From Branchiostoma floridae (taxonomy: Eukaryota > Chordata > Leptocardii > Amphioxiformes > Branchiostomatidae), in contig NC_049986.1 in the NCBI RefSeq assembly GCF_000003815.2, forward strand, positions 16,043,485-16,107,484: a stretch of DNA of 64,000 nt, written 5' to 3'. Below are positions 7,622 to 60,400 of the stretch, piece after piece. Below the pieces are notes generated by a model. That model searched no databases, was not told the origin of the DNA, and was given only the letters and a program-made list of their open reading frames with translations. Each line of letters begins with the position of its first letter. Within the stretch, counting starts at the first letter, position 1. The position numbers were made by a program, and so were the translations under genes.

Positions 7622-7721
7622 GCCAATTTCTATTCTCCAAGCAGAGGTTGGGTCCCCGGTAAAAAATGCCGACGACTACTATCTCTTTGACCCAACCTCT
7701 GCTTGGAGAATAGCCAATTTC
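7622..7721. mobile_element. Short foldback MITE, family A (copy 4) with exact 9-bp target duplication
   Basis: The 82-bp element (7631-7712) has perfect 23-bp terminal inverted repeats starting TATTCTCCAAGCAGAGG. It is flanked by exact 9-bp repeats GCCAATTTC at 7622-7630 and 7713-7721. The interior is about 36 bp and non-coding. This copy fixes the family boundaries and target-duplication length. Confidence 0.85.
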
Positions 7722-8592
7722 TACTATTTGTCCAACAACATATGTTCTCATTCTGCTGATCTGGGACAGTATAACAGATACATACATTTACAATAGCAGA
7801 CGCCATATATTAAAACTAGCCGGACAACACCACTCCGGTAGTGTCCCCATCATGTGTCACTGATCTCTCCGACCAAGGACACTCTTGTCATCACCATAAT
7901 TTATTTGCGCGGGAAAAATATTATGACTGACTTCGGACGATTCGTTTTGCCCATGGCACATTCCAGAGTGCAGTGGGGTTATTCCTTACAACGCAACACT
8001 AGAGTCAGGGTCGGTTATGTTTGTAATTCTATCGTAACAATTCCTGGCGTTACGACGCTAGTACAGGTTTTGGAGATCATAAGAAGATATGTCAAAGAAC
8101 GTTAGACAGAAAGGTAGACTATTACTTATAATAAACAAAATGATGATACAAAATATATATCACATAGAATATACCAAATAAATGAAGCAACTGAAATATA
8201 TGAATTTTCTAAGGAGTCCAACGTTCCAGACAGCATCCTCTATCTTTTATCAGTGACTGAAAAACAGCGAAGAAAATGCTTTTCTCCGACGTTAGAATTC
8301 CGCTATGTGGCGCTCGTAAATGAATTGCAAGGGGAAATCTCAAGTTCATGTACCCCGAAATGCTTCGAAACGTGTCAGCTATCTCAGCGTTAGATTTGAT
8401 GTCAGTGATAAACAAGATATGCATACATATGATGTATATTTTGTACCGTTAAAGTTGTTGTTCAGAATGAAAGTAACAGTAGACTTCTAGTTATAGTAAA
8501 CTTTGTGTACACACAATAAGCAATGTTTACATTAAAACTTATGATTTGACACGACATGACTTGTAACAACACGTTTTAATGGTGTCTCCCCC
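7722..8592. other. Intergenic stretch without a recognisable gene
   Basis: AT-rich sequence with no supportable exon, RNA gene or repeat. It ends at the first of the closely spaced CSL-type sites upstream of NRARP. Confidence 0.5.
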
Positions 8593-10655
8593 TTCCCACG
8601 GCGAGTTTAGACTCGTATAACACTTCTGCGGGGCGCACTCTACCTGTAACAATGGCCCACCTCTCACCTGTTCGACCTCAGGTGTGCCCGTTCACTTCAG
8701 GTCGCCAAGAAACTGACACTTGAGAAGATTTTTCCCACGCTAAGCGAACAGAAGCGCCTATATTACTGTTGGTGCGTCTTGTTTTTGCTTATATGTATAT
8801 AGAACTGCTGTGTATATCATTATCACTTCTTTGCAGGTGTCTATACTTTCTTTCCATCTTGAAGTTCATTCTTCCGCTATAGTGAACTTGTCGGTCAGTA
8901 GAAAAAGGTTGTAGCAAAGATACGACACAAAATGACAATGTTACCGTACGTATACTGACGAGCAATTATTTACCACTCACACAAAAGGCGACTTTTAGCA
9001 ATCAGTGGTTGGCAGAAAACATATGTTCTAGTCTGTCACGTGCGCATGTGATGAGAATTAAACTAGTTGGGAAAAACTAGACCCATCTTTCCCACGAAAC
9101 ACCTTATGTTGACTGGGACACACTGTACTGGCAGTCACACACACACATATACAACTCTGAGGTCTGTTTGTGACATTCTTCACTTTGACCCTCTCGACTG
9201 TTTCTAGGTTAAGTCGGCTAATGAGTTGGGGAGTATGATGTTGTGCCGTGATAACAGTAGTATATAACCTGTGCGTTTCCCGGCAGAGCTCGGACGTTCA
9301 CTCTACCTGTTGAGGTAATGGGCCCCTGACTGATTTACCTGTGTACTTTCCCACGAGAAATGTTTACCTTCAAGAAACCATACGTGTCTAGCAGACGTTT
9401 CCTTCTTTTCTAATTTGCTCGTGCCGTCTCTAAAGAAAGGTGGTATAACGGATGACTTCTATCCATCCACAAAGATGACATGTAAAATGACACAGCTCAG
9501 TTGTCAAGAAGTGCTTCTCAAATTAATCCTTCAAGTCTACAAGATAGACAACACAAAGGAGCTGTCTGTTGTTTTGCTAGGTTTTGTGATCAGAGAGTAC
9601 GATGAACTGGAAATGTTGTCCTTTCTAGTAGTCTCTACCAGACTCTGGCCAGGACGAATAGTAATAGGGGACTTCTCAAGGTACTAGGAATAAAAGCCCC
9701 GAGGAATTAATTGGCCTAGGAGTAGTAGCAATGAACTGACCGGCTGGATAGATTGCACAAGACTGACTGAGATCCCATGGAAACTTATTTTGGCCAAATT
9801 CCTCTCTTTTTTCCTCCAGCTGATACGTCTGCTTGGAGTCTAGTCCTTCCCCCACAGGTGAAAAACTGTACGGAGAACACCTCCCGTCTTTTTCCCACGG
9901 GGCCGTACCCTACAAACAGGCACACCGACGTGTAAGGTTTGTTTTCAGATATGTTGACACTGGGGTGGGATTTGTTTATTGAAAGCGCCAATGTAAGCTT
10001 TCAAAGCAAAGCACGGTAAATTGTTAGTAGGGTGTAACTCTCGCACCTCGGTGCGACAACTCGCCACTAATGAGGAGGTGGTCTCGAAAAATGGCCCTAA
10101 CCCCGTGGGGTGAATTTTCTCACGCGCTGGTCCCTGCGAGCTGCTCAAGTGCTGGATCAAAACCCTCGAGTCCCTCTCTGATCCCGGCTTTACTGGTTAG
10201 GAAAACACGATTGTAAACATGGTCGCAGGCTTCGCGCTAATGCGGCTCCTTGGCTTGGATAGGATTTCAGACTCCGTAGCAAGGAAAGTGACCTCGGGTA
10301 TTTTCCCACTGACTTCACCTCTGTAGCCGGTGGCATCTCAGCCCTAAAACGTGTTGCTAAGTATAGCCGCGAGGGAAATACGCGTAGTTGAGTCGACACG
10401 GTTGGCGGGACGAAAGTCCTGGCTTCCCACAGGAGGGAGATCTCCGCGCACGGGACGACTTTTCTAAAACTCGAGCTGTTTTCCCTCCAAATCTTGCCAC
10501 AATTTTGGCGACTCACGTGCAGGACGGGGTAAGATAGCCTGTGGTCGGTGCAGGGTTTCCCGTTTTCCCACAGGGGCGGGGATTGACACGCTGCCGGCCC
10601 ACACAGCTGCCAATCAAACGGGGTCAGGAGAAGTCGTTGTGAGAAAGTTCCCACG
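8593..10655. promoter_or_regulatory. Cluster of CSL/Su(H)-type Notch-response sites upstream of NRARP
   Basis: Ten matches to the strict CSL consensus YGTGRGAA lie in this stretch, at 8593-8600, 8732-8739, 9089-9096, 9348-9355, 9892-9899, 10117-10124, 10424-10431, 10565-10572, 10638-10645 and 10648-10655. All but the one at 10638 read TTCYCACR on the + strand. A weaker site (TTTCCCACT) is at 10302-10310. At equal base frequencies about 0.25 strict matches would be expected in 2.06 kb on both strands. NRARP is a known direct Notch/CSL target in vertebrates, so the cluster is read as its Notch-responsive promoter and enhancer. That role is inference from motif density and position. Confidence 0.75.
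10638..10655. promoter_or_regulatory. Abutting head-to-head pair of CSL sites
   Basis: TGTGAGAAA on the + strand (10638-10646) directly abuts GTTCCCACG (10647-10655), the reverse complement of CGTGGGAAC. The two sites face each other with almost no spacer. The classical Su(H) paired site has the same head-to-head orientation but about 15-17 bp between the sites, so this is a compressed variant or only two overlapping single sites. It lies about 400 bp before the NRARP start codon. Confidence 0.55.
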
Positions 10656-10721
10656 GTTCGGCTCATGAATATCGAATTTTGCAGCAGTCCTTGTTATCGG
10701 AGCGGGTCGGGTTTCCCCTCG

Positions 10722-10778
10722 TCCAATGAGAGGCTGGAACCTTGTCGTCGCGCCCGATAACCCCGTGCCTTGATTGGA
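10722..10778. promoter_or_regulatory. Two CCAAT boxes in the NRARP proximal promoter
   Basis: A direct CCAAT (10723-10727, in GTCCAATGAG) and an inverted one (ATTGG at 10773-10777, in TGATTGGAGG) are 50 bp apart, which is typical of NF-Y promoters. No convincing TATA box is seen. The surrounding sequence is CpG-rich. The transcription start is therefore expected at roughly 10800-10870; this is inference. Confidence 0.45.
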
Positions 10779-11051
10779 GGAGGCGTATTTGGCGGGGATA
10801 AGGTTTTCCCATGGTTTTGTTATGATAATGTTTGAACTTTTCCTGTGCTGCGGTTGAGGCGGAGTGCTGCAGTAGCCAGTGACGGACAGAACCCACCCAG
10901 ACCAGGCAGCACAGGAGCCGCTCTATCGCCTGCGGACGGACATTTTCTGCAGCGCAGCGCTGACACAACCAGCGCGGAACTATCCTCGTTGTACACCCGC
11001 AGGAAGGAACAGGGTTCTTCGCGGCTTCCAAGGGAACCTTCGGCGGGCGAG

Positions 11052-11390
11052 ATGAGTCAAACCGAAGTGGCCATGAGGACCGAGACGGCCCACCATCAGC
11101 AAGTTTTTCAGGAGGCCGTGAAGAATGGGGACACCGGCTCCCTGCGCCGCCTGCTCGCGGAGAAGGCGGTCAACGTGAACGTGTTCGACCCCGAGGGGCA
11201 GACAGCGCTGCACCAGTCCGTTCTGGACGGCAACCTGGAGCTAGTCAAGCTGCTTGTAAAGTTTGGAGCGGACGTTAGACTCGCGAACCGGGACGGTTGG
11301 AGTGCGCTGCACATAGCGGCGTACGGTGGCCATAAAGACATTGTTCTGTACCTGATAATGAGCGCTAGGGAAAGCAGTGGCAAGCGGTAG
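11052..11390 (+). CDS. NRARP: Notch-regulated ankyrin repeat protein (NRARP)
   Basis: The gene encodes a 112-residue, single-exon protein that matches vertebrate NRARP (114 residues) almost throughout the ankyrin core. Two ankyrin repeats are visible at about residues 49-78 (EGQTALHQ...) and 82-111 (DGWSALHIAA...). The N-terminal 48 residues form a helical cap with FQEAV. In vertebrates NRARP binds the Notch intracellular domain-CSL complex in the nucleus, lowers ICD stability and so gives negative feedback. It is also linked to Wnt/LEF1. The start chosen is the ATG of MSQTEV because family members begin MSQ. The same frame is open for 69 codons upstream, but that part is low-complexity and unlike the family. 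The dense CSL sites upstream fit direct Notch control. The vertebrate gene is also intronless. Confidence 0.95.
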   Translation: MSQTEVAMRTETAHHQQVFQEAVKNGDTGSLRRLLAEKAVNVNVFDPEGQTALHQSVLDGNLELVKLLVKFGADVRLANRDGWSALHIAAYGGHKDIVLYLIMSARESSGKR

Positions 11391-28871: not shown

Positions 28872-30397
28872 AGTGAGAGAGGATATGGTCGGCTTAGTAA
28901 CAGGGGCTGTCGAAGAAAGCGCCTTCTATCGGATAAGAAGTGCTGCACAGGCCAAGAACACGATTTCCTCTCTCTGTAGATGAACGAAATTACCAAGTTG
29001 ATAAAAACTAGGCTACGTACCATGTGAACGTTCGTGACATTGTCCAGTTCAGTTGAAATGTAGGCCAGTATATACAACTGAATAACATCAAAGCAACAGT
29101 GGTACAATCGCGTGTTACATTGATTTCCGTTTCTGTCACAAACCAAAGGAAAGAACTCTGAGCTGTCCGATTCTTGTGACTCATCTTGAAGAACAACAGC
29201 GATCATAAGTTTATCACGAGCAACTTCTTTATTCCCTGTTACCCACAGTTCGATATAATGAACTCAGTGACACACATATTTCGATGTGTGCAAAACCTAC
29301 GCAATGGGATTTGTTTTTAAGAGAAGAAGTGACAGTCTTGTGATCATTTTCGCGCTGTTAGACTCAAGGGAAACTAAATTGTTGATGGGTATCATATGAA
29401 ATTGTGTCATCTGCAATCTTATGCCAAGTCGATGCCCCTGAAAACAACAATTTCGCTCAATAACAAGTTGTTCCAAAGGCGTTCCGCGATCTTTTCAGTA
29501 GTTGAACAACAAGTCTTTCCGTTTAGTTGGGTTGTTTTAAGAGGGTATGTCAGTATTAAAGCCCCATTCCACTAGGGTGGGAACCTCGACTTAAGTTTGA
29601 CAGAGCGCTCAACTGAATTAAATGTATCTTACGTAACACTCACAGCTAGCCGCGGGCGCCAAGGCTACGTGGTTTCTCACAAGCAAGGTGGTAATTATTT
29701 ACTAGCAATTACTAAAGCGACACGTGTGTTTAAAATCTCATACGAGCGCCGCTGGCTAACTGTGATTTCGGACACGCGTAATTCGCCATCAAATTGATCA
29801 ATGGTCGGCGCACGGCCGCTCTTTCAAACCTACACGTGGCCGGTTTTGTGCGCATGTGTGCGCCCGCGGGAAAATGGCCGCCTGTCCACGTGTTGTTCCC
29901 TCATGACGTCACGCAGACGACGTTTTCTCGTGGGAAGCGCTGTCAAATGTTGGACGGCTGATGTTCGGTCGGAAGTCACACCAGTCGAGTCTGAAAAAAG
30001 ATGGTCTCTTTCGCGTGGGAAAATCCGACAAGTTTCCCGTCTGCTATAGTGCAGAATTAGAGATACCGCAATGGTTGTCTAGGTCACGACTTGATCTACT
30101 AGGTACAAGTGATGGTCATTTTGAACAAACGGTACAGATGGTTCTGGTTCCACCTGCTACTGCAGTGTGCGGAATACGGAACATCTGTCAATTTCTATAG
30201 CACAGAAGATCCGAAACGGTACTATACATCCATTGTTTCTCTTCCGGCGCAAAAAGGCTTGATCTGGTCAACAGCAAAAATACAAGGTTGGGTTATTGAC
30301 TTTTGTAGATCATTTGTTCACTGTCAGTACTGTTACAAACTACGAAATTTCATAAATATGTCAAACAGTGAATGACGAATGTGACTGCGCTTTTGTA
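28872..30397. other. Intergenic stretch with a family D half-element and two CSL-like sites
   Basis: At 29562-29630 the sequence CCCCATTCCACTAGGGTGGG with TTTGACAGAGCGCTCAAC matches the left end of family D, but no right end is seen. Strict CSL-like sites CGTGGGAAG (29929-29937) and CGTGGGAAA (30014-30022) lie 85 bp apart in a CpG-rich patch. No gene is recognised. Confidence 0.45.
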
Positions 30398-34226: not shown

Positions 34227-35376
34227 AAGTATGAAGCAAAGTGAAATAAAATCGAAGGGAATATAAGGTAACGGCACTGTGATCGGCAAATGCATTTGGA
34301 ACGGACTTTATTTTTGCATTTTGCGACTTGTTCCACGAAATTCCTAGAGCTCCAATGGTTAAACGGCGAACCGGCGGGAAAGTGCACGCGTGGAAATAGC
34401 TAAATACAAATCAAAGGCGATGGGCGGAGTCACGAATCAGTGCGTCTCGGGTTCCCACGCGGGCTGTCACAGACCAAATTCGGGGGGAGGGGGGTAAAAG
34501 CCGCTGAGTAGCGCGCCTGAAAAACGTTTGACGGGTTGACATTCTGGTGTAGATTATTTTTCTACGGTCTCAAAAATGTCACAAAGTCGTTTTCTAGTGG
34601 TCCCGGCCTAAATTATATGTGGCCCCGGGCAATCGGGACACCGCGTTGATTTCAATTCGAGGTCTGGTTCCAAAGACTTTTTCTGTCGAACCCGCACGGG
34701 AGACGTGAGTCAACGGCCAAATCTCTCCGTAGTTTCCCGATATCCTTTGCACAAATTCCTCACGTTGTCCTTTCTTCCCGCCAAAATTATGAATACTCAT
34801 GGTACAACGTGATGAAAGCTCCTTGGTACAATCACTATAATGTATACATGCCTATCCTTTCACACCTTTTCTTTTGTCGTGAACGAGCAAGAAGATATGT
34901 CTCCAGTCTCCAGAAAAACATGTTGTGGGCCCTGTTGAAGGGAGCTGTCATGCTAGCGGGGCAGCAGTTTATTAGCATATCATTCCAGGCCGGATTTCTA
35001 TTAGACGTAAACAATCGCAAGAATTGCATGCGGTGCTCCCATCTTGGGAGAACAGAAGTCATCCAAATACAACAGCAACGCTACAATCTTGCCTCATTCT
35101 GAAAATGTACGTTAATCGATATTTATCTATCACCCGCCAGTAACTGAATTTTAGTCCTTACTTTCTTATCTCAGTTCTGTTTCCTTGTATTTCGCTGATC
35201 TTCAGAGAATAATTTAGCCAACAAACACAACCGCCTAAAACAGCGCCGTAAAAGATTCATATTGCCAAATTCTAAAATAAAACACGTTTTAAAGCATGTT
35301 TCATAGGCTTCTAACGCCCGCAGTACCGGTTCCTTATATTCTTATTGCTTTTATTTTTGTTTGCTTCATACTTCCT

Positions 35377-35463
35377 TCCTTTTCGTTCCTTTTCGCACTT
35401 TCGTTCCTTTTCGTTCCTTTTCGTTCCTTTTCGTTCCTTTTCGTTCCTTTTCGCACTTTCGGT
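35377..35463. repeat. Right decamer array, inverted copy of the left array
   Basis: About seven TTTTCGTTCC units are bounded by TTTTCGCACTTTCG blocks, the exact reverse complement of the left array's units and punctuation. It is much shorter than the left array, so array length changes independently at each end. Confidence 0.9.
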
Positions 35464-35479
35464 AGACCCCTACAGAGCG

Positions 35480-37999
35480 TTGTTATGTCTCATGGTACGT
35501 CCCACAGACTTCCACAGGGACCCCAACTTCTCCTGCGGCCAGGTAGGACGCACCACCCCACACTTTCCCACGCCGACTGCGGGGCCGAGGGCCGGAAAGG
35601 CGCCGGACCGGTCCTCAAGAGGCCCCGCCAACCCTTTGAACCCCTCCCCGGTCAGCAATACAATCCACCCACAATTCAACAATTAGTAAAATCGGATTTC
35701 TTGAGTGGTACTTGCGAGCGACGTGGGAACCTTGCCGAGTGTAAACTATTGCCTGGAGTTCTCTTGGGGAAGGAGGGGTTGAGTGAGACCCGGAGTTGGG
35801 GCATGACCCCGCACAGACTTCCCACATAGATGTCCTTCTGTGTCACACTCACTTAAGTTCACAGAATTAAACTGTTTTTCTTCGCCTACTTGAGTAACGG
35901 CACATATCAACACGGTTAGTGGTGGAGAGGGACTGACATGGCCCTGCCACCGTTTATCAAATTCGCTGTGTCCAGATTTCAAAGTCAGCACCATTTTGGA
36001 ATATTTATGATTTTGAATACATAAGAACGAAGTATTAGTTTGCTGATTAGACAAACATGAAATTAGAATAGAACTCATACATGATAGACCTATGGGAATG
36101 ATAAAAAAAATAAATAAACTCAGTTTTCGATAATCTAGCGCATGTAACGACAAGAAAAATGCCAAGACATAGGGCGTGATACATCTTGCTTTGAACATTA
36201 CTACAGTAAGCTCAAATGATAACGTCAGAAATGATTGACAGTAACGCTAACATGTCTTGGATGATCACATGATCACCATTTCATGGTTTGTCCAGATTCA
36301 CTTCTGTTTATTTTACTAAACAGCTATTGTAGAAAATGAAAGTCCTTATACAAATAGAATTCAACATTCAAAAAAAGGGTCAGACGTTAAAACATGTGTG
36401 TGAACTCTTAACATTTTTCTTTACTTATAGCGGTATTGCAGTTTAGTTTAAAATCGTCGTATAAAGTTGAGAGGTGTCTGACCTCAAAGGAACCGACGAT
36501 GTCAAACCTCCATATGTTTTGTGGAGGCATTTGCCGTTCCAACTGTCGGAACAATAAGCAACCCTTCACAAGTTAAGTCCTGTACAAACAGTGTAGGTAC
36601 GCGGGGTCAAACCGTATATATAGACTGTACAAAAGTCAAGTGGAGAACACTCACTTTTCTTTCCATCTAGGATCGATGGGTAAAAAACGGGGGTGGCTTT
36701 GCGGAAAAGCCGCGATGACTTAGTCAACAAGGCACAGGGCCGATAAGAGACAGAGCGCGTAAGGGAATTAAGGTACTCCTGGCACACTCAGAGAGCCTGT
36801 ATTGCCGACACGTCAATAGGGAAAGCTACAAGTGCCGGTGGTGAAAACGGTGATATGTTTACGTACCAGACTGTGACGGCTAGGGCCCAAGAATACTCAC
36901 CATTTTTCTTCAATTTAGAGAGCAGTAAACTTAGAAATGAATGAATGAATGATTTTACCTTCTATCTGTACTTTGCATGTGGCACTGTTAAAATAAGTTA
37001 CTAACTTGAGTGCAGTGCCACGTTGCCTCTGTCTGTCCCAAACCAAATAATAAAATGAATGAATGAATGAATGATTATGATCATTATGATCAACTATGAA
37101 AAGTACATAGCAGCGCAGGCTGTGCTGTATACGAGGAGCACTTATAAAACTGAATATTGACTTCTTACAATCTAACCACCGTAACCACATTTGTATTCTA
37201 AAATCACAATCAAGACGAATTTTTTTATCTGCAGGGCAGATAAGCTTGGGTTTACACTACACTGTAACGAACGTAACGTATTGTAGAATTTGCGAAGACA
37301 TTGAAATATACGAAGAGATCTTTAACAGGTGGTTATGGTCTCATTGGACTGACCAAATCTTGAACCGCATGTAAACTATCTCATGGTAACGTTAGTATGA
37401 TAGGTCGGCTTTTATATCGAATGAATCTGATTGTGAACTTTGCACAGTCGGTACTTAACTGCGCGTAACCTTAAGTAGAGTTGACACCTGACGGTCTGGT
37501 TGAGTCGGTTGTAGTTCAGCATAACCCCTTTCAAAAGAGGGCGCCAAAGATAGAGCTAAAGCGACATCTAGCGAAAAGACTTCAAAATGACGGAGATACA
37601 AACCTCTGACGTTTTATGATGGTTCCAGCCGCTTCCGTTGTTTGAGTGACAAAGGGAAACTACCAAATTGTCTCCTCCGAAATGTACAATTTTCTGATAC
37701 AAGCCCTTCCTTTGCTGTTCCTGACCTGATATTTTTGTGTACAAGAAGCCCAAAAATTGAGACCTGACAGCAATCTACACATCTCCCGCCAAAATAAAGG
37801 TCAGATTAAACCATATAACAAGTAGGGGGTTCATCAGATATGTGGACTGATAAAAGTAATGATTTATAAAGTATTACTACATACTACAACATATAATGTA
37901 CTAAATAGACAATAACTAATGCATATGATATATATTTTAGTTACGACGTTACAAAACATATATCAATATTATTTTTTCATATACGCTGCTCCCCCAATA
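35480..37999. other. Intergenic stretch upstream of FIRRM
   Basis: No exon is recognised. CSL-like sites lie at 35574-35582, 35722-35730 and 35818-35826. Two short GAAT tracts are at about 36938 and 37055. The stretch ends in an AT-rich block (37800-37980). Confidence 0.45.
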
Positions 38000-43400: not shown

Positions 43401-46400
43401 GTTTCATTTGTGTTGGTCTGTACTGTCTCTGGGGTGGACGCAAGTCTACTGGTCACAACATGGAAGTTCCTCGCAAAGTAAGTGATAATTTTGTTACACT
43501 GGAACTGTGCTACCTTTGTGGCAAGATCTAGTCATAAATTGATAGTGGATGTTTGGATTGTGTTGGTCTGTACTGTGTCTAGGGTGGCCGCAAGTCTTCT
43601 GGCACAACATGGAAGTTTCTTACAAAGTAAGTTTGATTCTGGAACTACAAATAGTACTATTATGCTACCATTATGATAAGATCTGCCAATGAGTTACTTA
43701 AGATGATTGGATTGTCTTAGTGTGTCCTTTTGCTGATGATAGCTACAATTAACTTCAGAAAATCATGAAATGTTGTTAAGGACAAAAATCTTTCTGCACA
43801 TCTTAAGCTTTTGTCTGTGTAACACTAATGTCCGGGGGTGTAACTGGCCCCTTTAGGCTGGCGGATGTTGGCCGGGCTGCTATAAGCGAAATTTAATCAA
43901 GCTTCTTGAGCTTGAATAAGGCACTTTGACACTGACGTTGTTGTGTCAAGATGGTATCTCACTCCTTGAATATTTGAAAAAGTGCTGGTATTTTCACTGG
44001 CTATGACATCAAGAAAACTTGCTATGATTTCACTTTTTCTTTAACAGGCAGCTCACAAAACACAAGGAAGTGCTGAAGAATCATGTAGACATGGCTCCTC
44101 TGGTGAGGACACTGTGCTCCGAGGTGGGGTCTAACTGCAAGTACTGTGTTGAACTGGCTTCTAAAGATGCTGCAGACAGACAGGTTTGTACTGTGCTCTT
44201 ACGATTTCCATGAATCTTTAAATCAGTCTTGTAAAGTCTTTAATGATTAAGCAGGACTTGGTATATGATGTAGAATCCTTAAATCTATTTTACGACATAA
44301 TAAAATGCGACTCCATAGAGTGCACAACTACATAGCTGCCAGGAATGACAGTAACCTGATATTGAAAATCGACCTGAATTGGAACTGGATGTTCCTACCT
44401 GCACCAGAAGAACTCTACTGTACTCTACTGTACTCTATAAACCATTAGAAAAGTTGTAGGACTTGGTATGTTGGAATCAGTACTTTCACAAAATAATATA
44501 ATTATTTTTCCTTTGAATCTAGAATGGCTGTGGAGACCAGAAGTTGTACACAAGAACTCTGAAAATCTGTCGTTTCTTCATGCAGTGCCTCATGTGTCTG
44601 GTTAAGGTGGGCTAGAGCACTTCTTTTTCACTGACATGATGTATAAGTGAGTTTATGTGTATTCAAAATGTAACATGAATATATGAAGGTTTGCAACGTG
44701 TATGTGGATAGATAATGAAAACTTATGATTATTGGAACAAGTCATTTTAAGATTTGACATGTAACTCTTTCGGTTTGGCACTGATATTGTAAATGATATG
44801 AGAATGATTCATAAATCTGTTTCACATGTTTCAGGACTATAATGGTTACCTGGGGTCATGTATAAAGGAAATTTTCCACATCATCTTGGAAATGCAAAGG
44901 TACAAAAATATACATGTATGATTTTGGATACATGTACTCCTATATCTGTTTGCTGTTGTTCATTTTACAAGTTAAGATAAGTTTGGCCCTTGGCCGTCTT
45001 TAAAAGTTTCTTTAAACTTTACAAACATGCCAGAAACATCTATAATGGCTATATTGCTTTTTTAATTGTAAGGTTATTTAAGTCCTTCCCGCACCAAAGG
45101 GTGTCAAAAAATAATAGGTGGCGCCCGTGTAGGGCAGCCGCAAGCTTTTCAGCTCTCCCCTACTCTGGCGTCTAAGGTGCCTCCATCCTTATTCTGATCA
45201 GTTTTAAGTGCAATATTTACGTAATGTATGTCTAAGCGTCCTGTGAACCGTTTGGCGTCTACTTGTTTCGTACTGTGCGGACTTTTGAGGAGTATCTGAC
45301 GTTTGTTCGTGTTGTGTGGCCGATCCCTGTCTCCTGAAATGGCGTCCATTGGAGTTATACGTTACTCCGCCGGCTTTTTGAGAAGCCTGCAGCGATGGCC
45401 AACGGGTTCCATTGATCTACAAGCTAAGGAAAAGCTGAAGACCTACGGACTATTCAGAAGAGGTAGACCGAGAGGAAGGAAAGCAGGTACAAACTTTGCT
45501 CGAAATATCTCTACAATCGTTGGTAATCGACCCTCCCCATCTCTCCAGCGTGATCATCCTTTGATATGTAAATCAGCGTCGGACTTTCTAAGTGGCCCTG
45601 ATCCATTTATCAAGCGTTACCTGCGTCCTTTCACCTGTGATCGTACCAAGACGCCCCGGCGGAATGTAAACAACAACAGACCCAGGTGTGGTCATCAGTT
45701 ACCTACATTCCAGATTTTAAACCCAAGATCGCTGTTAAACAAACTGGACGAGTTTCAGTCCGTACTTTCGAGTAACAACACTGACATAGCCGTAGTCTCC
45801 GAGACGTGGTTTACCCCTGCAACACCCGACCAGCTTATGTCAGTAGACGGTTTTTCGGTGTTCTCCAAATGTCGTCCCGATCGTCGAGGAGGCGGCGTCG
45901 CAGTCTATGTCAAAGACAGCCTCCCGTCAAGTCTTCTCGACATCTCCGTTCCTGACGAACTGGAGTGTTTGTGGGTTAGGATCCGGCCGTACCGCCTCCC
46001 TCGGAACGTTTCCAGCCTAGCCGTATGTGCCGTGTACTCCCCTCCTAACTCAGGTCACGATGAGCTACTGGTCGACCACTTAGTGGATACGATTGACTCC
46101 CTCCGTGTGAAGTATCCTGACATAGGGATAGCCGTTGCTGGTGACTTTAACCGGGTCGACGTAACAAGAGTGTGTACAAGCCACAACCTGTGCCAGGTGG
46201 TCAAGCAACCCACAAGAGGCCAAGTCACTTTGGATCTCCTGATCACCAACCTGGCTCCGCACTACTTACCTCCGACCATCTCACCCCCCTTAGGATCTAG
46301 TGATCACAACACGGTGGAATTTCAACCTAAAGCTAGAACCGTGACCAACAGGACAGTGAGACGTGTGTACAGACCTATCAAAGACTCAGCATTGCGACTA

Positions 46401-49400
46401 TTCGGGCAATGGATTACATCTCATGGCTGGTCTGAAGTCTACACCGCTACCTCCGTTTGTGACAAATCCCGAGCTATGTACACGACGCTCCAAGGTCAAA
46501 TCGACCACTTCTTCCCACCAAAGGTTTCCCGTTCTCACCACCAAGACAAACCGTGGCTGTCAGCTGAGGTCAAATCCCTCATACATCGCAGACAACAAGC
46601 CTTTGCCAGGAACGATGATTCCACCTGGAAACACCTTAGGAACAAAGTCCAAAGGAAAATCAGGGACTTAAAAAGGACCTACTACAACTCCAAAGTGAAG
46701 TCTATGAAGAAGGACAATATCTCACAGTGGCACAAGGAGATAAAAACCATGATGAACTCATCCTGTTCCGAACCGGTCATTCACATCAACGGGTTCGACC
46801 CCACAGACAAACCCGGTATTGCCATGGAGATAAACAAAACACTCGGATCAGTGATACAGTCCCTACCTGCGATCGACACAACAGTACTACCTGCGTACTT
46901 ACCTTCGCTCCCGGCACCAGTTGTTCAACCCTGGGATGTCTATAAAGAACTCCAGAAGGTCAAAACACGCAAAGCAGCTGGGCCAGATGGCATCCCAGGT
47001 AAAATAATCAAGGAGTTTGCGTGTGAACTGAGCGAGCCCTTTACCGACATTCTCAATAGCTCCCTCCAACAAGGCTTAGTGCCGGATGAATGGAAATGTG
47101 CGGTTATTGTTCCAATTCCTAAGACCAAACCCCCGTTGTTAACTGAACTCCGTCCAATCTCCCTTACATCCTTGTTAGCGAAAGTCGCCGAACGCTTTGT
47201 CTCGCGGTGGGTGCTGACCGACATCGTTCCTCAAATCGATGTTCAACAGTACGGCTGCCTCAAGGGCAAATCGACAACACATTGCCTCCTAGATCTGACC
47301 AACGAGGTTTTCAAAGCCACCGACAAACCCGGCGTCCTGTGCTCTCTTGTGTCAACCGATTATAGCAAGGCGTTCGACCGTGTGTGTCACAACCTCGCTA
47401 TCCAACGTCTGCTTGATCTTGGCCTACGCCCCTCTGTGACAAGATGGATCGTAGACTTCCTCTCAAACAGGAGCCAGGTTGTACGCTACCATGGAACACT
47501 TTCCGACAGCTTGAAGGTTACCTGCGGATTACCCCAGGGCACTCTACTCGGGCCGTTGATTTTCCTTGCGTATATCAACAGTGCTGCACATCAGGCTGCC
47601 TCCAAACGCTGGAAATTCGTTGACGACCTGAATCTCTTGGAAATAAGAACCCCCAACCTAAGTATGTCTCATATGCAACAGGACTTGAACGACCTGGACC
47701 ACTGGTCTCGCACCAGCCATATGAAGTTGCATCCCAAGAAATGTCAAGTTATGTACATCCATTTCAGGAAGGTCCCGTACCCAACACCATCTCTCATGAT
47801 CGACAACACTGAGCTACAACAGGTGCCAGTGATGAGGATCCTGGGCGTGTTTCTGCAGGCTGACCTACGTTGGAACTCTCACGTTGACAACATTTGTAAC
47901 AAATCTAGCCGACGCCTTTACCTCCTCCGTAATCTGAAACACTTTAACGTGTCCATCGGCGACCTAGTCACAGTGTATGTGACTTACATCCGACCAGTCC
48001 TGGAGTATTGTGCCCCAGTTTGGCACTCCGGGCTCACCACTGCACTTAGTGACAGGATCGAGAAGGTCCAACGGAGAGCTGTGCGCATAATACTGGGACA
48101 GAGATACACGTCTTACACTGATGCCTGTTCTGACTTGGGTCTACCTTCGCTACAAGCACGACGTCTTGAACTGATCACACACTTTGCTAACTCTCTCAGT
48201 CAGTCCGATCATTTCTTGCACTTACTGCCACCAGCCAGAGGTGAGATCAGTGGTAGGCAGACAAGGTCATCCCACAAACTGAACACTACTCGCTGTAGAA
48301 CTGAACGCTATCGCAACAGCGCTGTACCCTTCATGGTCCGTCTTTTGAACAAGTAATTGTAACCTGTATGTTTGTGCTTTGTATCAAATAGTAAGTCATT
48401 GTGTATTTTAAATATTTGTTTACCTTCCGATAAAGGGATATGCTGATATTACTGCAAATACTAATTTATATGCTTTATCCCGATACTGATTTAATTCGTC
48501 TGCAACGATTTTTAAGGGCTGTACTATTGTAATGATTCATGATATTCGATTTTAACTAATTTAATGATTGATGTAATGACATGTCGTAATTCAGCCTTGT
48601 GGCTGCTATGTTACTGTCAGTTTTGTTTTCGAAATAAACCAGTCATAATATAATAATAGGAGATGTTTTGTCTTGTTAAAGTCTTTTGCCCCCAGCTTGT
48701 CTGCGCCTCCGCTAGCTGTTGTCAGCTGCTACTGAGAAGATGAAGGATACATTACAAAGTTTGGCCATTGGCCCTCTTAAGATTCTTAATCTCTACAAAC
48801 ATGCTAAAAAAAAAAGTAAAAACAATGTTGTTTTGAAACTGTATGTTCAATTGTGAAATGTTTTGTTTTGTTTTAGTCTTCTGCCCCCCAGTTTGTCTGC
48901 CCCTCCACTGTCGTCAGCTGCTGCTGAGGAGATGAAGGCCACGCTGCTGGTGGGAATCGAACCCATGATCCAGCATCTCCTGGACAACAGGGACTTCATA
49001 CAGCTGGTTACAGCAAGGAACAAAGGTTAGTTTCTAGAGAATTTATTTGCCGAACAAGTTTTCTAAAGTACCTAAAAAATTTACTTGCCGGAAACAAATT
49101 TTCACTTGCCCAAAATTTAAATGACATTTTTCTTATACTATAAGTTATAGATGCTTTTTCACTTGCAGTGATGGATTTCTTTTATCACTGGCTCTATTTT
49201 TGTTGAACAATGCTTGATGACTGTGAGAAGTAACATCTGTGAAATCTCACTCATTGTAAAATCTTACTTGCCAGATCAAGCAAGTGGGGTAGGCTATTTC
49301 ACTTGCCAGGGATAATAGGGCTAGTGGACTTGTCTAACCCTGCTGAGAAGTCAAAACAGTAAAGTATCTTTAACTCATCTATTTATGTAGTTTCTTTTAG

Positions 49401-56583: not shown

Positions 56584-57081
56584 GCGTACAGGATGGACAC
56601 TTGTCAGACCTGTTCACAGAGGCCAACATTGCCTTTCTCCTGAGGACTGTTGGCAGCCAATGCGTGGAATGGTGACTTGAGGCTATATGTCACTGATTCC
56701 ATTGTCTGTGTCATTGTTGCTTGGTAAGAATGCATTCAAAATGTGGACGTCTTCACACACAATCTAGCAACATAGATTAAAAGTTTTTTCCAACAATGTG
56801 AGCTAATGCAATGAAGAATTTTTAGGGGTGGGTTTCAATTACTTGGCTACGAATACATGGACGATAGCAATATTGTAGTATAAAAAAAAGAATAAGAAAA
56901 ACCTTTAATACCGACAGATATGCCTCAGGACTGGCCCGTACCCAAAAATTGCCCTCTTTTCAATTTGCCCTTGGGCGGGATAGTTGTTTTTATGTGATCA
57001 TATCACTGGTTTAATTGTCTATGTCCTAATATGACAACGTGCTTGGCATTAAGTCCATGGCATTAGTCCTAATGTTAGAAA
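56584..57081. other. P450 upstream region
   Basis: About 500 bp between the MITE and the P450 start codon. I see no convincing TATA box or receptor-response element, and no gene. Confidence 0.4.
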
Positions 57082-57451
57082 ATGGCGACGGGCACACTTT
57101 CTCTGGAGATCTTTGAGCCATTTCGTCTGAATATTCAGACGTTCCTTGTGTTCTGCCTTGTCTTTCTCCTGACCTACCTGTATCTTAGACGTCCCCGGAA
57201 CTTGCCTCCCTACCCGGCAGGATGGGTGCCTGTTCTCGGGCACCTCCCCGCCTTGGGCCGAGCGCCTCACCTGAAGCTGACGGCGTGGAGGCGGCAGTAC
57301 GGGGACGTCTTCACCGTCAGGATGGGGATGGAAGATGTGGTGGTTGTGAACGGCTACAAGGCTGTCAAGGACGTGATCGTGGACAGGTCCGAGCTGTTCG
57401 CTGACAGGGCACCGTCGTACATATTTGATGCTTGTACTGGTTTCGGAAAAG
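57082..57451 (+). CDS. P450 exon 1
   Basis: Starts at ATG in AAAATGGCG, ends in phase 1 at TTCGGAAAAG followed by GTAACT. Encodes the anchor, the proline hinge and the first beta sheet region up to ACTGFGK. Confidence 0.92.
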
Positions 57452-60400
57452 GTAACTTTACTGTAATAATCTGATTCAGTTCACCACAAAGGCTGTCAAC
57501 ATTTGAGACACTCAAGTGATAAGGATTCCACTAAATGAATTATGACAGAGCTGTCACACACCACTTTTTTTAACTGTAAGAACCCCTCATTTTTATCAAC
57601 CCCGCACCGCCGTTTTTAGGGTTTTATTAGCTTCCACACATTGCCGTTTTAGCTCCCGCGCACCGGGATTTTTAGCTTCTGCACACCGCTGTCTTAAATT
57701 GCCACACATCACCGCCGTTTTAGTTACCACGCAGCGGTAAATTTTCAATTAAGCTAAATAAATCGAACAAAGGATAATTCATGTAATCACAATCCACGTT
57801 TCAGCCCCGCAGGCAGGTACAGACTAACAGGGTAGGGTAGGTGGAAATTTGACCAGTACTCGTATACGTATATTGGTACGGTACAGTGTGTACGATGCCC
57901 ATGGGTACAATGCGGAATGTTGTAAATGCTTTATAACCGCTCTAGTTTTGAACACAGAGGTACCGTTGTCGTTATGTTTGTTTACATTTTGATGTGTGCT
58001 TTCAAGTTTGTTCCCGTTGGCCCGGGTCCAAGTTTGTTCCCGGGCTGAGCTGTATTTTGTCAAGAACTTTACAATTATTTCACAGTGGTATGGGGTCTTC
58101 GATATCTATATCTTACTTTTTAAAACTTGTTCTATTTCATACGTGATAAATCCTTAAGACATCGGCGGTGGACGATGGGGGAATGAAATGAAACAGAAAA
58201 GGAAATTCATCTCTGCGTCCCTGAAGGCACTTGGCATGAAAGTGGGGACAGGAAGCGTTGAAGAAAATATCCGAGAAGAAGCAGGCCTCCTCTGTGACAA
58301 GGTGAGGTCTTTTTGGTTGTTGAGATAAGAGTTTTATTTGGTCTGGGCAGTTAAAAACTGAACTACGAACCAAATTACAACACTGTTATACGCTTGTCAG
58401 AATCAATGCTACCTTATAGATGTCGACGTCTTAAAATAATGTTACATATTGTACAAGAACTAACAGACAAGTGAACTGTTCTCGAAACAATAATAGAAAG
58501 AACACTTTGTTTTCTAATATAGGTTATGATTATGAAAAATATCCTAATTATACATTGATGTGGCGCAATAGAGGAATGATTTTCTGAGTCGTTCAGACCG
58601 ACTGAAACACAGAAACTCGTCTTTCTTTTCAAGCCACTATTGTTTGTTTTACTCAGATCTCCATTAGTGTAACGATGTAACACTATTCTTCCTAGCTGGA
58701 GTCTACCAAAGTACAAACAATGACTTATACAAGTCACTGGCGAAGACAAAAGAAGAAGGAAATTTAAAGGCTCGCTTTACACACGGCGGCTCGCACGATG
58801 ATTCGTGGAAAAACTATCGTACGAACTTTCACACACAAAAATACCTGTTTAACTGTCGTCAGTCTAACGTGGACCTTATTCGTTCTTTACCAGGTGGCAA
58901 AATATAGAGGGAGGCCTTTTGACATCGAGAGAGATCTACACGTGGCAATAGGCAACGTCATCTGCTCTATGATCTTCGGGAATCGCTTCGACCACGCTGA
59001 TGAGACGTTTAAAGACCTCACGAGATCAGCCATGACTGTCAACTCAAAAATAGGACCTGCACAGCTCGTGAGCGTCTTTCCAGTACTGCGATTTGTTCCC
59101 GGCGGTTCGTATCACTTCCATGTTGCCTGTATGCCTGCATGTATACGTATGCCTGTATATATGTATGCCTGTATGTATACGTATGCCTGTATGTATACGT
59201 ATGCCTGTATATATGTATGCCTGTATGCCTGTATGTATGTATGTATGTATGTATGTATCTGTGTATGTATGTATGTATGTATGTATGTATGTATGTTTAT
59301 GTATGTATGTATGTATGTATGCATGTATGTAAACATTCATCACTCGAATATCAACTAAAACCAGCATCGGCTGGTGTGGAATGAGATCAAGAGGCCACGT
59401 GTTCGATTACTGGCATTCTTGGCTGGACGTTGTGTTTGGGGGGACGATTTTGCTCATTCCTGGTGTGAAATAGGTACATGACTTCGGTTGGGGAGGTAGA
59501 ATGCAGTGGAAGAATGGTCCCTTACACTACTGTGCCCAAGTCACAGTGGGCAGCCATTTACTGGCCCTTTGGCCCCAAAGGCTTTGTGGCTACCTTTATA
59601 ACTAACTTTTTGTACTGCTATCACATAGACCATCGACAATGCAGGGAACGGATAGAACATGCATTTCTTCCCTTTTGTCCAACGATATACTTTTACATTA
59701 CTCTGTTTTTTCAGCAAACAAGTCAATTAAGGATGCACTCCACCACGCCGCGAAGATGCAGAAGTTTATTCGGGATGAGATAGTTCGCCACCAGCAGGAC
59801 ACGGATCCAGACAATCCACGTGACTTCATCGATTTTGGCCTGAAGGAAGTCGAGAATCAAGGAAAGGTAAGTAGTGGACATGTAGAACAAGGGGCGCAGC
59901 ATTTCAAAGCATACTCGCTGGCTCGCTCACTCACTCCACCGCTGCCACCAGTGGATATAGGAAGAACGTCCACTCTGACTCGTGTCTTGGGTGAGACTTA
60001 GATGGGGACATCCGGGTCTCTCCTTTTTTTTTTGATATTGGGTCTAATTCACAGCAGATGTCACAATACTATCTGTCATGGTCTAACTGGCCACACACGT
60101 TACAATTGAAAAAGAAGTTTAGAAATAGTTATTTCTGGACTATTACTGTTAGTGGTATGTTTGAAAAGGTTTGTGAATATTCATAGGTGAAGAACTTCAC
60201 CAAGGAAAATGTGATGTACATCGCTCATGACTTCCTCCTTGCTGGGATCGACACCAGTGCCAGCACTCTGCGCTGGGCCTTGCTATACCTGGCCATGGAC
60301 ACAAACATCCAAGAGAGGGTAAGCAGGTTCCTTGTTCATTATTCGGACGCTTTTACAACTGTTCAAAATCTCAGTGGAAGTTAATACATACAATTTTATG

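Follow-up and report, generated by a model that had tools for sequence, protein, structure and literature searches.

A dense array of predicted CSL sites upstream of NRARP in the lancelet Branchiostoma floridae suggests direct Notch input to a Notch inhibitor

Is the run of consensus CSL (RBPJ/Su(H)) sites in front of a lancelet gene of the NRARP type more than an accident of composition or repeats, and, if so, how might it read Notch? In the window (the whole 64,000-nt stretch of DNA analysed here), positions 8593-10655 (2063 bases) hold 10 exact matches to YGTGRGAA, nine on the minus strand and one on the plus strand, a recount that agrees with the original prediction of ten sites, nine of them in one orientation. 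The sites are as follows:

8593..8600, minus strand: predicted CSL site CGTGGGAA, exact YGTGRGAA match
8732..8739, minus strand: predicted CSL site CGTGGGAA, exact YGTGRGAA match
9089..9096, minus strand: predicted CSL site CGTGGGAA, with a weak facing half-site (6/8 letters) at 9066, gap 15
9348..9355, minus strand: predicted CSL site CGTGGGAA, exact YGTGRGAA match
9892..9899, minus strand: predicted CSL site CGTGGGAA, exact YGTGRGAA match
10117..10124, minus strand: predicted CSL site CGTGAGAA, exact YGTGRGAA match
10424..10431, minus strand: predicted CSL site TGTGGGAA, exact YGTGRGAA match
10565..10572, minus strand: predicted CSL site TGTGGGAA, exact YGTGRGAA match
10638..10645, plus strand: predicted CSL site TGTGAGAA, facing the 10648 site across a 2-bp gap
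10648..10655, minus strand: predicted CSL site CGTGGGAA, with a weak facing half-site (6/8) at 10625, gap 15

The form CGTGGGAA makes up six of the ten. Spacings range from 10 to 544 bp (in order 139, 357, 259, 544, 225, 307, 141, 73 and 10), the widest gap running from 9348 to 9892, and the 3' end of the array lies 396 bases from the start codon of the gene downstream:

11052..11390, plus strand: NRARP coding sequence, one exon, 112 amino acids plus stop (frame, ankyrin repeats, structure-chain match)

Residues 1-109 of the 112 align in one stretch to residues 1-111 of 114 of the solved NRARP chain 6py8_B (E 6e-41); the 16 long multi-repeat ankyrin chains that outrank 6py8_B by whole-sequence E-value do so through several stretches each or through partial matches. 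In the genome, the sequence has itself as the only full-length match (235 bits), the next reaching 47 bits over 49 residues, among the best 150 of 445 candidates. The colinear alignment over the length of the chain and the lone full-length match, within those best 150 of 445, uphold the assignment of the gene to NRARP. NRARP is older than the chordates, with an annelid member, Pdu-Nrarp (PMC5356439); it is a Notch target and feedback inhibitor (PMC7561103; PMC7529455) that inhibits the Notch complex (PMC7529455), and its loss in mouse raises NICD about 1.9-fold (PMC10859470). The array adjoins a gene that is Notch-regulated in other animals, a target status taken from these papers. Ten other open frames of the window were compared with Pfam, giving one retrotransposon, two cytochrome P450 pieces and seven frames that matched no family. 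The retrotransposon (45300-48353) is a 1018-aa open frame with endonuclease/exonuclease and reverse-transcriptase domains, of the non-LTR type by its domains; apart from the cytochrome P450 pieces (57079-57471 and 58768-59355), none of the ten frames was recognised as a cellular gene.

YGTGRGAA occurs 60,881 times in 513.43 Mb of the genome, and the same pattern read backwards 45,795 times. The genome rate gives 0.245 sites per 2063 bases, so the estimate of about 0.25 made beforehand was accurate; ten sites represent a 41-fold excess (Poisson P about 2e-13), and windows this dense would be expected about 4e-8 times genome-wide, tandem arrays being ignored. Local composition predicts 0.35 sites against the 10 seen, and 3000 dinucleotide shuffles of the region gave a mean of 0.33 and at most 4. 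The whole window contains 28 YGTGRGAA, against a mean of 9.39 and a largest value of 19 in 100 shuffles. Systematic control loci (20 fixed-position 10-kb stretches, two from each of two contigs and one from each of 16 others; L024 was all N) yielded 25 sites in 187,378 called bases, with a maximum of 3 per 2063 bases. By shuffles, genome rate and control loci alike, we reject a chance origin of the array.

The choice of pattern was examined in the same way. Without masking, 149 of the 16,384 patterns of this shape attain 10 matches somewhere within 2063 bases, a result that, taken alone, would weaken the array finding; the top-ranked of these patterns sit at the tandem arrays of the window. 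Once those arrays are masked, the count falls to 4 of 16,384: YGTGRGAA, the same pattern shifted by one base, and two A/T-runs. A look-elsewhere artefact is therefore rejected. Within 8593-10655, after masking, YGTGRGAA has the lowest P among the 16,384 patterns. Its one-letter neighbours, summed over the pattern table, occur 8 times in the region against about 5.1 expected; since they are hardly enriched, the excess appears specific to the CSL consensus.

Repeats were a natural concern, and the original prediction had itself named a common repeat, or equal density in random DNA, as what would speak against it. That caution was well placed, since satellites bearing YGTGRGAA form arrays just as dense elsewhere in this genome: a tandem satellite covered by L003 and L004 (C6:5859595) holds 12 sites in 3 kb, and one at C1:408227-408481 holds at least 11 sites with a 23-base period. 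Both arrays are rich in TGTGAGAA, and such satellites can mislead cluster scans. Within 8593-10655 we found no tandem array, and the spacings are irregular, so the region does not have the form of a CSL-bearing satellite. A genome search with 8500-11060 returned the window itself as the single full-length match, together with 41 other matches of 71-79% identity, all within 9622-9852 and mostly at 9629-9843; these 41 are a lower bound, the best 40 of 782 candidates having been scored by a DNA repeat search that skips very common words. They define one feature:

9629..9843, no strand assigned: interspersed repeat of about 215 bp, occupying part of the widest array gap, with 0 of the 10 sites inside

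The flanks of the sites are unrelated to one another (no ungapped 80-base comparison exceeds 42% identity), and the flanks of all 28 sites of the window gave no match at E 1e-3 against the window and L001-L042 (L003, L004 and L009 left aside). A short fold-back at about 7632-7713, with two inverted arms seen by eye, also lies in the window; 20 bases of one arm recur in L039, so it is probably part of a mobile element. With no tandem array, unrelated flanks and a sole interspersed repeat that carries none of the sites, we reject a repeat origin, and neither outcome named in advance, a common repeat or equal density in random DNA, was found. It is accordingly extremely unlikely that the sites are a functionless by-product of composition or repeats: the CpG-rich flank described below and the motif-bearing satellites elsewhere favour that explanation, but 10 sites against 0.35 under local composition, the failure to find a repeat at the sites and the near-background frequency of one-letter neighbours all weigh against it.

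The common orientation of nine sites is a weak signal (9/10, two-sided P 0.021), and helical phasing of the spacings, judged by eye, gave no pattern. E-boxes, as possible local-activator sites, were counted on both strands of 8500-11052: CANNTG occurs 26 times against 24.3 from the window average; CAGGTG occurs 4 times against 1.9 and CAGCTG 4 times against 2.1, likewise counted on both strands and compared with the window average.

As a positive control, a genome search with Hairy_orange (PF07527) gave ten Hes-type loci (L037-L046), each read upstream of the Orange exon, through any introns, over 5 kb (six loci) or 4 kb (four). Together they contain 41 YGTGRGAA in 45,504 called bases where 5.4 are expected, a 7.6-fold excess, with counts per locus from 10 (L038) down to 1 (L045) and 0 (L046). 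The same motif is therefore in excess over the ten loci as it is at NRARP, but the arrangement differs: the densest Hes-type locus has 6 sites per 2063 bases, the sites lie in both orientations, and two of the loci carry a strict SPS with gap 16. Relative to the gene, 26 Hes-type sites run along and 15 against, and as these loci lean the opposite way from NRARP and the P of 0.021 is weak, we reject any meaning for the shared orientation of the array. Just over half of the Hes-type sites (21 of 41) lie in alignable blocks shared by paralogous loci, each copy of the block carrying a site. Three of these blocks (L038 1413-1541, L041 3296-3423 and L043 748-875, in gene orientation) are 97-98% identical and contain two CGTGGGAA 87 bp apart; the remaining L038/L041 blocks are 76-80% identical. 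The 97-98% block may be a conserved Notch module or a recently copied one; as blocks this similar could be recent copies, the alignments suggest constraint without proving it.

Taken together, the real density of the array, the want of a repeat explanation and the enrichment of the motif at Hes-type genes make direct Notch input the natural reading, and we regard such input to NRARP as a well-supported prediction. Our main proposal, to which we give a probability of roughly 0.8, is that a homotypic CSL array drives Notch-induced NRARP expression and thereby would close a negative-feedback loop. With ten sites far above chance, NRARP, a damper of Notch, is probably itself strongly switched on by Notch. 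In the absence of signal, CSL with co-repressors would hold NRARP low; upon Notch cleavage, NICD-CSL-Mastermind complexes would load on the many separately spaced sites and turn NRARP on; and NRARP would then bind the NICD-CSL complex and damp it, closing the loop. A match to the consensus does not amount to binding; we infer that CSL binds here, that NRARP responds to Notch, that the feedback step operates in this animal, and what form the dose response takes.

How these sites might act depends on whether they are paired. An SPS was defined as a pair of CSL sites facing each other across 15-17 bp and was sought genome-wide in the YGTGDGAA form, which gave 32 SPS-like places, compared with 11 for the control pattern read backwards. 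Two of the ten Hes-type loci have a strict SPS (C14:4806890 and C14:15414623), no more than 2 kb from the Orange exon. Separately, five strict SPS places with gap 16, closely alike, cluster in the 430 kb of C17:18400497-18830897; they are either a repeat or a locally duplicated family that carries a dimer-type Notch site. The window contains no strict SPS at gaps 14-18, and 0 of the 32 genome places fall there; with both scans giving none, a strict SPS at NRARP is rejected. The only close facing pair at NRARP is 10638/10648, and with its 2-bp gap, filling of both sides at once is probably impossible.

Weaker pairing was considered as well. Taking NRARP and six Hes-type loci together (38 sites), we count 10 weak facing half-sites over the five gap lengths from 14 to 18, against 40 over 56 other gap lengths, and 2 of those at gaps 14-18 belong to NRARP, as partners of 9089 and 10648. 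The response could on this basis pass through one or two cryptic dimer sites (9066/9089 and 10625/10648, gap 15), the other solo sites being accessory. Both half-sites do lie at gap 15, weak partners are in excess at gaps 14-18, and PMC7561103 counts mammalian Nrarp among the SPS-dependent targets; nevertheless, the partners match at only 6/8 letters, the window is without a strict SPS, and ten strict sites would be left unexplained, so we consider this route distinctly improbable.

If the sites work as solo sites and not as SPS dimers, output at NRARP would probably be set by their number and by the level of NICD, and would be exposed to competition from co-repressors. Published systems offer parallels. 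Fly assays show no cooperativity in binding to solo CSL sites and a greater openness of such sites to co-repressor (PMC8494340), and wing notching is caused by SPS reporters and not by solo-site reporters (PMC7213981). The synthetic Drosophila 12xCSL reporters of these studies (PMC8494340, PMC7213981) resemble the NRARP array in being arrays of independent CSL sites, but they are artificial, whereas the lancelet array is natural, with spacings of 10 to 544 bp. In C. elegans, sygl-1 has a homotypic three-site LAG-1/CSL cluster whose output is dose dependent and set by site number (PMC9058496). In each case several solo sites that match YGTGRGAA strictly precede a gene that is, or for lancelet NRARP would be, induced by Notch; the two differ in that the cluster has three sites in sygl-1 and ten over 2 kb at NRARP, and in that the NRARP target is a feedback inhibitor. 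On the strength of the fly, C. elegans and mouse papers, we infer a site-counting, dose-dependent feedback promoter at NRARP; by analogy with sygl-1 and the fly reporters, a sensitive, perhaps graded, Notch read-out is plausible.

The openness of solo sites to co-repressor also suggests a different use of the array, in which most sites would serve default repression by CSL and co-repressors outside Notch-active cells, while activation would run through a few of them. CSL partners include co-repressors as well as NICD, and the fly result just cited (PMC8494340) points the same way; against this, sequence alone does not separate repression from activation, and the papers know NRARP as an induced target (PMC7561103; PMC7529455). 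We judge a mainly repressive array unlikely and keep Notch-induced activation as the preferred reading.

The comparison with mammals is less straightforward. Mammalian Nrarp is the same gene, a Notch target and feedback inhibitor (PMC7561103, PMC7529455); it is described as SPS/dimer-dependent (PMC7561103), whereas the lancelet window is without a strict SPS. In dimer-defective mice, as PMC11670933 reports, NRARP expression is unchanged, which weakens this contrast between mammal and lancelet. The missing strict SPS argues mildly against simple conservation of the array as an ancestral chordate element.

Sites related to the array extend beyond it. CGTGGGAA occurs 9,463 times genome-wide and 16 times in the window, 6 in the array and 10 elsewhere. 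All ten of the latter lie in 1-36 kb, where 0.63 are expected from the genome rate and 0.97 from local composition; there are 0 in the last 28 kb of the window and 0 in 20-29 kb. YGTGRGAA occurs 16 times in the 1-36 kb flank outside the array, against 5.4 by local composition. CpG observed/expected is 0.87 in the flank, higher than past 36 kb (0.59) or in the random loci (0.67). Because the 36-kb border of the CGTGGGAA domain was drawn with the data already in view, 20-29 kb is empty and the flank is CpG-rich, the domain of about 34 kb is only a lead. Three isolated CGTGGGAA stand at 2282, 4299 and 6406, at intervals of 2.0-2.1 kb; AAT follows every one of them on its own strand, and the flanks are otherwise unrelated. 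Two further groups lie downstream of the gene:

29674..30021, no strand assigned: possible distal module with three strict CSL sites (29674, 29929, 30014), exact matches
34452..35826, no strand assigned: possible distal module with four strict CSL sites (34452, 35565, 35722, 35819), exact matches

Lying in CpG-rich DNA 18-24 kb downstream of NRARP, these seven sites are possible distal Notch modules; the only frame tested in the distal flank, an open frame at 34650-35099, matched no Pfam family. More broadly, the NRARP locus could be a Notch-reading domain of solo CSL sites about 34 kb long, made up of the ten-site promoter array and CpG-rich modules without a strict SPS, in which a site-counting code takes the place of the dimer code used by Hes genes and by mammalian Nrarp, so that the inhibitor would read Notch dose gradedly and some Hes genes would read it via dimers. 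We offer this larger proposal tentatively and hold it more doubtful than probable.

An earlier report of the NRARP CSL array in lancelet was not found in the open-licence papers searched. What is new at NRARP is that it has no strict SPS, unlike two Hes-type genes in this genome, and, as a lead, that CGTGGGAA sites continue over about 34 kb. One genome and one pathway here present a solo-site array, at NRARP, alongside SPS promoters, at the two Hes-type genes. If the sites are occupied and Notch-dependent, the locus would be a clean test-bed for separating site number from site pairing in the Notch read-out, and the evolution of the chordate Notch feedback loop would become testable, mammalian Nrarp being described as dimer-dependent and the lancelet gene looking otherwise.
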